A DNA stretch of 43,819 nt, taken from positions 1 through 43,819 of the forward strand of contig JAUNJE010000022.1 of assembly GCA_030533415.1 (NCBI GenBank). The letters run 5' to 3'. The stretch is from Eubacteriales bacterium. GTDB lineage: Bacteria; Bacillota; Clostridia; Oscillospirales; Oscillospiraceae. A program made the translations under genes and the position numbers. A model generated the notes under the pieces. The model was not told the origin of the DNA. It made no database searches and worked only from the letters and a program-made list of their open reading frames with translations. Shown here one piece after another: positions 41,829 to 43,819 of this stretch. Numbering within the stretch: the stretch's first letter is position 1; every line of letters begins with the position of its first letter.

Positions 41829-41905
41829 GGTGCCTTCTTTATAAAAATGAAACATTTTTATAAAGAAACAGTATGAAATCTTTTAAATGAATATCAGTAT
41901 AAAAG
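41819..41905. repeat. Dispersed hairpin repeat, copy 3
   Basis: GCCGTCAGGCGGTGCC followed by a 14-bp perfect stem TTCTTTATAAAAAT with loop GAAAC (41835-41867), then GAATATCAGTATAAAAG, the inverted form of the start of copy 2 (32891). Confidence 0.8.
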
Positions 41906-41931
41906 AAAAACCAGGCATTCCTGCCTGGTTC
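41901..41931 (-). terminator. Terminator of the 26-residue ORF
   Basis: On the minus strand AACCAGGCA, loop GGAA, TGCCTGGTT then TTTCTTTT: a textbook intrinsic terminator 4 nt after the ORF's stop. Confidence 0.85.
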
Positions 41932-41934
41932 CGG

Positions 41935-42015
41935 TCAGCGCTCGCTGGGGCCGCCGGCGTCCTCATCAAAGATCAGGTCATCCAGATCCGCCAGGGGGGT
42001 ATTGCTTTCCCGCAT
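41935..42015 (-). CDS. 26-residue acidic small protein
   Basis: ATG at 42015 is preceded by AAAGGAGA at ideal spacing and the frame ends four bases before an intrinsic terminator, so a short dedicated transcription unit is well supported. The product begins MRESNTPLADLDDLIFDED and is strongly acidic with no hydrophobic helix. TATACT lies upstream on the minus strand (about 42046-42051). I do not know its function; an acidic peptide of this size might bind a basic protein or be a DUF-type microprotein of this lineage. Confidence 0.65.
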   Translation of the reverse strand: MRESNTPLADLDDLIFDEDAGGPSER

Positions 42016-42087
42016 GTATATTTCTCCTTTCAAAGTAGACTACCGGACAGTATATGTAAGAAGCTGTAAAAAATGTGCCGGATTTTC

Positions 42088-42116
42088 TTGACAGCCATGA
42101 AAAAATTGGGTAGAAT
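42088..42116 (+). promoter_or_regulatory. Strong promoter of the tRNA-Arg locus
   Basis: TTGACA (42088-42093), 17 nt, TAGAAT (42111-42116). It points toward the tRNA remnants and the intact tRNA-Arg 475 nt downstream. Confidence 0.75.
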
Positions 42117-42183
42117 ATAGCCGTATGTACGCTGGCGGCCCACCAGGACAGGCAGGGCCGGAGAAATAAGCGTGATGTGCCTT

Positions 42184-42220
42184 GGCAGTGTAGAGGATGA
42201 CGCAACCGCCTCCCAAGGGG
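42184..42220 (+). pseudogene. Most decayed tRNA-Arg-like 5' remnant
   Basis: AACCGCCTCCCAAGG resembles the anticodon arm of the copies below (ACCGCCTCCTAAG), preceded by TAGAGGATGACGC in place of the D arm. Resemblance is partial and this is the least secure of the three. Confidence 0.4.
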
Positions 42221-42270
42221 CAGTTCGTTCGTTTCCTTTTCTGAGTAAAAATGGAATATTTTTTCGAAAT

Positions 42271-42312
42271 GCCCCCGTACCTCACCAGGATAGAGGGTCC
42301 GCCTCCTAAGAG
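42271..42312 (+). pseudogene. tRNA-Arg(CCT) 5'-half remnant
   Basis: CGTACCTCACC-AGGATAGAG-GGTCCGC-CTCCTAAG aligns with the D arm and anticodon loop of the 42365 copy, with scattered substitutions, and stops matching just past the anticodon loop. Confidence 0.65.
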
Positions 42313-42364
42313 AACGAGGATTGGACACTTTTGGGGGATGACCCCTACTTAAAATTTCATATAC

Positions 42365-42406
42365 GTCTGCGTAGCTCAGTTGGATAGAGCGACCGCCTCC
42401 TAAGCG
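42365..42406 (+). pseudogene. tRNA-Arg(CCT) 5'-half remnant, well preserved
   Basis: Acceptor strand GTCTGCG, TA, D arm GCTCAGTTGGATAGAGC, then ACCGC-CTCCTAA-GCG. The 3' anticodon strand breaks after GCG and no T arm or acceptor 3' strand follows, so only the 5' half is present. Confidence 0.8.
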
Positions 42407-42470
42407 TGAGACATACCTTACGCCCTGCATTTTCCGGCCGAAAAAGTATGGAGTTAATTCGAGCCAGTTT

Positions 42471-42522
42471 TCTAACATCGGCATCAGGTATCATTTCCCG
42501 GTAAGATGCGGGCGATGTTAGA
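42471..42522. repeat. Separated inverted repeat in the tRNA scar
   Basis: TCTAACATCG (42471-42480) and CGATGTTAGA (42513-42522), 32 nt apart. The TCTAAC box recurs at 42711, 42770 and 42805 on the integrase side of the intact tRNA. Confidence 0.6.
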
Positions 42523-42590
42523 TAAAATCGTTGATCTCTGGCTTTCATCAAAACACCGGAAACCATTGAAAATACAGCATAATTTCATAT

Positions 42591-42667
42591 GCGCCAGTAG
42601 CTCAGCTGGATAGAGCACCGCCCTCCTAAGGCGGGTGTCGGGGGTTCGAATCCCTTCTGGCGTGCCA
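42591..42667 (+). tRNA. tRNA-Arg(CCT)
   Basis: 77 nt cloverleaf: acceptor GCGCCAG/CTGGCGT (one G-T), D arm GCTCAGCTGGATAGAGC, anticodon arm CCGCC-CTCCTAA-GGCGG (anticodon CCT), T arm GGGGG-TTCGAAT-CCCTT, discriminator G and encoded CCA. It decodes AGG. Its 3' side borders an integrase gene. Confidence 0.96.
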
Positions 42668-42670
42668 GCC

Positions 42671-42709
42671 AAGTCCGGAAGCCTTTTGCGGTTTTCCGGG
42701 CTTGTTTTT
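42671..42709 (+). terminator. tRNA-Arg terminator
   Basis: AAGTCCGGAAGCC pairs imperfectly with GGTTTTCCGGGCTT, followed by GTTTTT, starting 3 nt after the tRNA. Confidence 0.75.
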
Positions 42710-42731
42710 ATCTAACAGAATTAGATAAAAA
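42705..42731. repeat. 27-bp palindrome, probable recombinase/Xis site
   Basis: TTTTTATCTAA, CAGAA, TTAGATAAAAA: 11-bp perfect arms next to the tRNA terminator and 240 nt from the integrase end. The rest of 42732-42924 is AT-rich with further TCTAAC boxes and no gene. Confidence 0.6.
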
Positions 42732-42924
42732 CGATGTTTCTTCTAATTTTCTGTGCTCTTTTTCTAACGACGTTTTGTCCGTTCGTGTTTCATTTTTGTC
42801 TAACGTAAGGTGTATGGTATCACTTTCATCCATGAAAAATATAGATAAACCGTAAATTTTCAGGTGGAGTCAAAGCAAACCATTGTGTCAGACTACACGC
42901 AAGATATAGATACGCACATAATTA

Positions 42925-42963
42925 ACGCAGCTCCCCAGAGAATGAACCTCTGAGGAGCTGCGT
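42925..42963 (-). terminator. Probable integrase terminator
   Basis: ACGCAGCTCC pairs with GGAGCTGCGT, with an inner CAGAG/CTCTG stem, 11 nt after the integrase stop. T tract is weak. Confidence 0.6.
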
Positions 42964-42973
42964 CTCTTTCCTC

Positions 42974-43819
42974 TTACATGTTTTTAGCTAACGCTTCAAG
43001 CAAAGCTGTAATTTCAGGGCTTGCCAGCATTTTTTCAAGGGTTTCCGGCGAAATGCCTTCCGGTAGCGAAAACGATGGGGTCGGCTGTTTGGTATCTTTC
43101 TTATCATAAAACGCTTCCTGAAATAGCTGAGCATTGTTCTTCCGGTCATCGTCCAAAATATGAGAATAGATATCCGTAACCATCTTAACCTGCGAGTGCC
43201 CGGAATCGCCTTGAACAGCTTTGATGTCACCGCCGTTCAGTTTCAGCTTATAGGTAATACTTGCATGGCGGAAGCTATGAAAGACTACCGGCGGGAGATC
43301 GTTTTCTTTTATCAGGCGTCGCAGCGCGGCGTTAATTGTAGATGCCTCTGTTGGAAGTCCAAGTGCTCCGGCAAATACAAGGTTAAAGTCCTGATATTCG
43401 CTGCCAAGCAGTTCGATCTTCTCATCCTGTGTTTGTTTCCACTCGTCCAACATATGTGCAACAGCTTTAGGAAGGAATACCTTGCGGACGCTGCTCTCCG
43501 TCTTTGGCGATTTTAGCACTAGCACAGTGGAAGTTACAGAAGTCGTTGCCGGAAACTCCAGCATGACATCCTTTCCATCCAGCGCTGACAGTGTTTTTCG
43601 GCTGACTCGCTGAAGCTCTTTATTGACATATACCGACGCCGTGCCATTTTCAATGCTGTCCTCCGAGATATCTACACAATCCCATGTCAGGCCGAGCATT
43701 TCTCCGATACGGAGCGAGCAGCAGAAAGAAACATTCAATGCCAGGGCCAATCTCGGATCATCGCAGAGATGGAGTGCTTGAAACAGCGTTTCGGCTGTCC
43801 ATATATCACGCTTTGCATA
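42974..43819 (-). CDS. int: Tyrosine recombinase/integrase, catalytic domain (cut by window edge)
   Basis: 281 residues are visible; the N-terminal arm- and core-binding part lies beyond the window. Catalytic residues: R in SLRIGEMLGLTW, H-x-x-R in FHSFRHASITYKL, H in GDSGHSQVKMVTDIYSHIL with the nucleophile Y in that last stretch. It cuts and rejoins attachment sites of an integrative element. It ends 307 nt from the intact tRNA-Arg, the usual place for an integrase at an element's end. The tail ends LLEALAKNM. Moderately AT-rich compared with the backbone. Confidence 0.92.
   Translation of the reverse strand, partial: YAKRDIWTAETLFQALHLCDDPRLALALNVSFCCSLRIGEMLGLTWDCVDISEDSIENGTASVYVNKELQRVSRKTLSALDGKDVMLEFPATTSVTSTVLVLKSPKTESSVRKVFLPKAVAHMLDEWKQTQDEKIELLGSEYQDFNLVFAGALGLPTEASTINAALRRLIKENDLPPVVFHSFRHASITYKLKLNGGDIKAVQGDSGHSQVKMVTDIYSHILDDDRKNNAQLFQEAFYDKKDTKQPTPSFSLPEGISPETLEKMLASPEITALLEALAKNM

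Follow-up and report, generated by a model that had tools for sequence, protein, structure and literature searches.

A row of tRNA-Arg(CCT) 5′ halves in an Oscillospiraceae contig and a family of integrative elements that probably replaces the whole tRNA gene

Introduction

The stretch of DNA analyzed here, called the window, is the entire 43,819-bp contig JAUNJE010000022.1 of a Eubacteriales bacterium belonging to the Oscillospiraceae (assembly GCA_030533415.1; 2.72 Mb in 80 contigs, 88% complete). Near its end, three 5′ halves of tRNA-Arg(CCT), hereafter called scars, precede an intact tRNA-Arg(CCT) gene and the gene of a tyrosine integrase. In the standard account of elements that target tRNA genes, the element restores the gene that it interrupts. 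In the present case, the row of scars very probably results from at least three integrations of an element family that splits the host tRNA-Arg(CCT) gene and brings a complete replacement gene. The anatomy of the elements, their junctions, the rejoining host halves, and the nesting of elements can be read in the genomes of relatives. The element in the window would have had the same history, its integrase would have performed the recombination, and the replacement tRNA would be expressed.

The proposed mechanism is as follows. The anticodon loop of tRNA-Arg(CCT) would serve as the attachment site attB for the element family. The attP core of the element (CTCCTAAG) would lie a few dozen to more than 200 bp upstream of a complete tRNA-Arg(CCT) gene borne by the element. 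In the type found in the window, the integrase gene would follow this tRNA, and in some Faecalibacterium relatives it would be located at the far end. Integration would cut the host gene and leave its 5′ half behind the host promoter, followed by the left edge of the element and the whole tRNA. The host 3′ half would be moved to the far end of the element, so that the host gene is split and not restored. The element-borne tRNA would then take over as the intact gene and become the next target. Each further element would add one 5′ half to the upstream row and one 3′ half downstream, in the reverse order.

Results

Three scars in the window

The row of 5′-half fragments is real. The preliminary description of this DNA, made from the letters alone, had reported three tRNA-Arg 5′ halves before an intact tRNA-Arg(CCT), and this was confirmed by profile matches for scars 2 and 3 and by alignments for scar 1 (Table 1). 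A profile of 102 distinct 40-nt 5′ halves from other genomes was searched against all 43,819 bases. Three strong matches were obtained, at 42370-42404 (E = 2.7e-13), at 42592-42630 (E = 1.8e-11; the 5′ half of the intact gene itself), and at 42271-42310 (E = 5.8e-11). The next match, at 42202-42213 inside scar 1, is at the chance level (E = 2.3). Scar 1 is read here as 42179-42217; the preliminary description had put it at 42184. By pairwise alignment, 42160-42213 matches the tRNA 5′ half of a relative (G052) with a score of 40, the maximum of 60 shuffles being 29. Furthermore, the DNA after scar 1 (42214-42268) aligns with the known element edge following a scar of another genome (score 53; shuffles up to 30).

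Scar 2 has the same sequence as the 5′ half of the single intact tRNA of G013 (L062), which is preceded by a region similar to the promoter region of the window (72% over about 188 nt). Over the 54 nt of 42353-42406, which include scar 3, the window agrees without a mismatch with G026 (L071), where this sequence forms the leader and 5′ half of an intact tRNA gene. The intact tRNA of the window, too, has a 5′ half whose 40 nt all recur as a 5′ half in another genome. As may be expected for half molecules, the Rfam tRNA model misses the scars even at E ≤ 10 and matches the intact gene only. A failure of the fragments to align with tRNA-Arg, which the preliminary description had named as grounds for giving up its idea, was thus not found for scars 2 and 3, which match the 5′-half profile. 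Its statement that the fragments are better preserved nearer the intact gene holds insofar as scar 1 is decayed and scars 2 and 3 are not.

The left end of the element in relatives

A search with the integrase of the window led to 17 named loci, in records that include Faecalibacterium prausnitzii, Gemmiger formicilis, Eubacterium ramulus, Coprococcus catus, and [Clostridium] asparagiforme. An intact tRNA-Arg(CCT) adjoins the integrase at 14 of the 17 loci, and all of the 14 have an upstream 5′ half. The remaining three have a split copy (L099), a tRNA-Thr (L112), or neither (L113). Twelve of these 14 share one arrangement. A host-variable 5′ half is followed by CGCCTCCTAAG or a near form of it, then by an edge (about 53 nt) and a whole tRNA, both nearly constant, and lastly by terminator-like DNA and the integrase. 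The DNA from the core through the edge and the whole tRNA onward is near-constant across hosts, and the outermost 5′ half differs by host. Since the whole tRNA, including its own 5′ half, travels with the element, the crossover is placed in the upstream core and not in the intact gene. In these relatives, the DNA after each scar, which had been described as unrelated, is the left edge of the element between the attP core and the tRNA. By analogy, the intact tRNA-Arg(CCT) in the window would be an element-borne gene, which is now the current gene and the next target.

Some other element edges contain a promoter-like sequence (L098 and L100, by eye). At L099 (10800-11387) of Gemmiger formicilis, the right end of another element precedes the 3′ half and the integrase of this element, and the arrangement suggests a nested insertion in the tRNA of the element. 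In a record deposited as 'Bacteriophage sp.' (MT839540.1; L288, 70-146), the sequence starts within an element resembling that of Faecalibacterium G163, in its left edge and tRNA-Arg(CCT).

The far end and the rejoined halves

One near-identical right end, joined at ...ACTCCTAAG, meets 3′ halves in nine genomes. These have eight distinct 3′ halves, one being shared by G060 and G061. A first, stricter 3′-half pattern gave no displaced half in 15 genomes; the attR reading is mostly ACTCCTAAG and not CCTCCTAAG. On single contigs, the distance from the intact tRNA to the displaced half is 31.6 kb in G068 (C. asparagiforme), 35.8 kb in G065, 42.1 kb in G062, 29.7 kb in G060, and 6.2 kb in G044. In G066, the partner of the middle scar lies 54.8 kb away, and the partner of the nearest scar was not found.

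All 19 assigned pairs of 5′ and 3′ halves, from 18 genomes and with 11 pairs on one contig, rejoin to a tRNA-Arg(CCT) that is recognized by ARAGORN. The pairing in the acceptor and anticodon stems is 12/12 in 17 pairs and 11 in two. Among 336 mismatched combinations, the mean is 8.74, eight combinations reach 12, and 40 reach at least 11. The observed sum was reached by none of 20,000 permutations. In nine of the 19 displaced halves, the stretch read does not end in CCA. No uninterrupted full-length match to the joined flanks was found in the genera of G065 and G062.

The preliminary description had supposed that each element brought a replacement 5′ half. This finds no support in the relatives; where both ends are visible, a whole tRNA-Arg(CCT) gene lies downstream of the attP core of the element, and the two host halves stay apart, one at each end.

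Stacked elements in Faecalibacterium

For Faecalibacterium, the genus of G065, chromosomes as single contigs were found through the joined-flank search. G164 has an upstream 5′ half whose 3′ half is about 80 kb away; put back together, the two give exactly the 77-nt tRNA sequence that stands uninterrupted in G152 and G165. The DNA from 123 bp past the displaced core of G164 matches G152 at 95-97%, which indicates the same site. In G152, this shared DNA is separated from the tRNA by about 3.9 kb. G152 and G165 were considered as empty sites and dropped, given this 3.9 kb and post-tRNA flanks that resemble those after element-borne tRNAs.

G163 has two scars, S1 and S2, before an intact tRNA. 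The 3′ half of S2 is 72.4 kb away and that of S1 is 64.5 kb beyond it. This mirror order of the halves is what repeated insertion into the tRNA of the newest element predicts. The two scars of G163 coexist with 72- and 64-kb stretches, bearing integrases, downstream; a row of scars can thus build up while the inserted DNA is retained, and the earlier supposition that the elements were lost except for their edges is unnecessary. The flank of the outermost 3′ half of G163 matches the post-tRNA flank of G165 (90% over 221 nt). It was considered as host DNA and dropped, since it also matches the flanks after element-borne tRNAs in G150, G162, and G164.

An integrase lies beside the tRNA in G137 and beside the displaced S2 half in G163. 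In G162, G163 (twice; G163:C1:805511-870731), and G164, an integrase gene lies about 0.5-1.2 kb inward of the displaced 3′ half, so that the far end is its place in some elements.

Scars and integrase in the genus of the window

Among the 101 genomes of the genus that were searched (the window included), 64 have the exact 5′-half core pattern, and one locus was classified per genome. The integrase queries giving results were those of the window, L097, and L061. Fifty of the 64 loci are scorable. Six have no intact gene on the fetched stretch, and eight end less than 450 bp downstream with no integrase visible (seven of these eight carry scars). At least one extra 5′ half is present upstream at all nine scorable loci with an integrase beside the tRNA, one of which is the window, and only four of the 41 scorable loci without it are scarred (Fisher p = 2.9e-7). 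The other 37 have one intact tRNA and are free of fragments, and in the scar-free loci read, the promoter is mostly close upstream of a single intact tRNA. Fragments in relatives without any element, as part of a normal tRNA array, had been foreseen as evidence against repeated integration; the absence of fragments from these 37 loci speaks otherwise. Repeated integration at the anticodon loop, with the oldest scar upstream and in an unusual direction, is supported, as had been proposed.

A strong integrase homologue is present in nine of the 101 genomes and adjoins a scarred tRNA-Arg(CCT) in seven. Displaced 3′ halves occur in this genus too (G076 and G108). The longest row seen in the genus is that of G128 (L214, 1340-1955); it has four 5′ halves, and a fifth has just begun where the contig ends. 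Within the genus, the integrase closest to that of the window (58% identical) is that of G087 (L219), where no tRNA-Arg(CCT) core is present in the 3.5 kb read.

Organization of the window

The features are listed in Table 1.

Table 1. Features of the tRNA-Arg(CCT) locus in the window
Feature	Position	Strand	Basis
Sigma-70-like promoter	42088-42116	+	TTGACA-17-TAGAAT, 11/12 consensus bases
Scar 1, oldest, decayed tRNA-Arg(CCT) 5′ half	42179-42217	+	Alignment to tRNA of a relative
Left edge of first element (spacer, attP core to tRNA)	42218-42270	+	Alignment of 42214-42268 to edge of a relative
Scar 2, tRNA-Arg(CCT) 5′ half	42271-42310	+	40/40 nt identical to 5′ half in relatives
Presumed left edge of second element	42311-42364	+	Position; starts AGAAC like post-scar edges of L106 and L110 (by eye)
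Scar 3, tRNA-Arg(CCT) 5′ half	42365-42404	+	40/40 nt identical to 5′ half of a relative
Presumed left edge of current element	42405-42590	+	Sequence; TCTAAC/GTTAGA repeats
Intact tRNA-Arg(CCT)	42591-42667	+	ARAGORN; Rfam 63 bits
Tyrosine integrase, C-terminal 281 aa	42974-43819	-	PF00589, E = 5.9e-18; gene runs off contig

The alignment of the presumed second edge has a score of 28, merely equal to the shuffle maximum, and is therefore weak on its own. The presumed edge of the current element has no significant relative (score 26; shuffles up to 30), and its repeats would be of the kind expected for integrase arm sites. Several TCTAAC/TTAGAT repeats were also seen by eye at 42700-42990, between the tRNA and the integrase, where relatives have GCTAAT/TTAGC repeats; these are probably integrase arm sites. 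The element in the window is visible for only 1.15 kb beyond the tRNA.

The promoter at 42088 is the sole sigma-70-like match in 41900-43000. Since shuffles would give 1.9 matches, it is supported by its position and not by statistics; the one strong promoter noted earlier is present before the row, and a match of this kind is not in itself unusual. As no other promoter was found in this region, the intact tRNA is presumed to be transcribed from about 475 bp upstream, across the scars. At 42404-42423, a weak hairpin resembling a terminator argues mildly against this read-through; there are two sites of this kind, against 1.3 expected. The genome also encodes a tRNA-Arg(TCT), so tRNA-Arg(CCT) may not be essential. 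Upstream, an open frame of 26 codons (MRESNTPLADLDD...) was read by eye on the minus strand at 41935-42015, with a terminator-like hairpin after it, and similar frames precede the tRNA in several relatives (by eye).

Nature and cargo of the element

The 31.7-kb element of C. asparagiforme (G068) encodes an integrase, a MobA-type relaxase, and TraG-P-loop (VirB4-like), TrbL/VirB6-like, and VirD4-like proteins, as well as NlpC/P60, topoisomerase, and ArdA-domain proteins. Judging from this content, it is probably a conjugative element. The element of G044 is short and has IS21-type genes. In viral_contigs, the predicted circular attP junction of one element type has no exact match, and no relative of the integrase was confirmed. 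The left end of the C. asparagiforme element has no match in plasmids; in phages, three records each match 4-6% of the query, at the tRNA.

Discussion

Several observations weigh against the replacement of the whole gene or limit its reach. In the genome of the window itself, displaced 3′ halves were not found with two patterns (the genome is 88% complete and the contig ends inside the integrase), and two of the three element edges in the window have no significant relative. In the genus, four scarred loci (G016, G108, G130, and G134) have no integrase beside the tRNA, and the integrase homologues of G079 and G087 have no scarred tRNA-Arg(CCT) in the stretch read. The flanks of the displaced 3′ halves in G076 and G108 matched no other fetched locus, and no empty site was found in the genus; nor is a fully element-free site proved in Faecalibacterium. 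The second stretch of G163 has an integrase at each end and may be composite. The 19 pairs were chosen with complementarity in view and hence not blind, and for G066 the shared core was used to fill in the last base of the 5′ half. Lastly, the 3′ half at the right end of G070 (L110/L122) is unmatched to the upstream 5′ halves, and G069 (L109/L143) has one right end whose 3′ half lacks a 5′ partner. These two mismatches suggest recombination between neighboring cores. Such recombination would trim the row, so the scar count is a lower bound.

Is the locus a conventional tRNA island, with the crossover in the intact tRNA, a 3′ half restored by the element, and upstream 5′ halves that have nothing to do with it? 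The position of the integrase and the downstream 3′ fragment appear conventional. At L112, where an integrase homologue sits at a tRNA-Thr, a further tRNA lies upstream and the 86 bp read on that side contain no 5′ half, so that the whole-gene habit may belong only to the users of tRNA-Arg(CCT). G152 and G165 are scar-free upstream and yet have element-like DNA after the tRNA. However, the intact tRNA has a 5′ half that stays the same, along with the element, from host to host; the half specific to each host is the upstream scar, and in relatives it is this scar that pairs with the 3′ half displaced to the far end. The scars also track the presence of the integrase. A conventional island is therefore improbable.

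The history first offered for this DNA, in which islands that restore the 5′ half were inserted upstream of the tRNA and later deleted, is slightly less probable still. Such islands do exist (159 of the 3919 in Islander have 5′ fragments; PMC4383910). However, genomes assembled as one contig have the inserted DNA downstream, and in relatives the element contributes the 3′ half of the intact tRNA as well, with that of the host displaced to the far end.

Tandem duplication of the tRNA gene followed by decay, with no mobile elements involved, would suit the arrays of near-identical tandem units in G138, L110, and G044, which would otherwise result from homologous recombination losing one of two stacked copies. 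In other arrays, however, the units differ in tRNA sequence and stop at the core, beyond which shared element edges begin, and the 3′ halves are 6-80 kb away; duplication alone is thus very improbable. That the scars are functional tRNA-like regulatory RNAs, as their place within the presumed tRNA transcript might suggest, is hardly credible, since their number varies, they are absent from 37 of the 41 loci without an integrase, and they have no Rfam match.

Replacement of the whole gene has wider consequences. Because the interrupted host gene stays divided and the element supplies its own, tRNA-Arg(CCT) could be replaced repeatedly by mobile copies. The compact row of 5′ halves would make past integrations countable and orderable from the sequence, as a lower bound. 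Island-finding rules that expect a single fragment together with a restored gene could put the junction in the wrong place. Dependence is also at issue: where the host halves have decayed, the host may fare poorly once the element is lost. There is perhaps an even chance that such elements took over the supply of tRNA-Arg(CCT) across gut Clostridia, that the hosts depend on the element copy, that a core translation gene turns over by horizontal transfer, and that the row of 5′ halves is an ordered, sometimes trimmed tally of integrations.

Comparison with known systems

In the islands of the Islander database, the attP carries a tDNA fragment that restores the target (3′ fragments in 3760 and 5′ fragments in 159; PMC4383910). 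As in that account, the present elements have a tyrosine integrase, an anticodon-loop crossover, a host fragment displaced to the far end, and tandem stacking. The attP of those islands is a fragment restoring the gene, whereas here it precedes a whole replacement gene and the target is left unrestored. In the window, the tyrosine integrase is represented by the partial PF00589 gene beside the tRNA. The displaced target fragment at the far end is seen in relatives and was not found in the genome of the window. A restoring attP fragment is absent from relatives with both ends visible, and by analogy would be absent from the window.

In the system of PMC8371274, the 5′ side of the tRNA gene is likewise affected, but here both host halves stay apart. 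The ssrA islands of Dehalococcoides resemble the present elements in that stacked islands leave a row of target-gene repeats. They differ in using a serine recombinase, and what marks their ends is a 20-bp repeat of the tmRNA 3′ end rather than a compact row of 5′ halves behind the host promoter (PMC3146451). The C. asparagiforme element resembles the integrative and conjugative elements of Firmicutes in its relaxase and its VirB4/TraG-like, TrbL/VirB6-like, and VirD4-like proteins, and is unlike them in an integration module with a whole replacement tRNA. Among the literature matches listed, from a search that mostly leaves subscription papers outside, there was no description of an island carrying a whole tRNA. 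In summary, these elements target and stack like tRNA islands, but they replace the gene rather than restore it.
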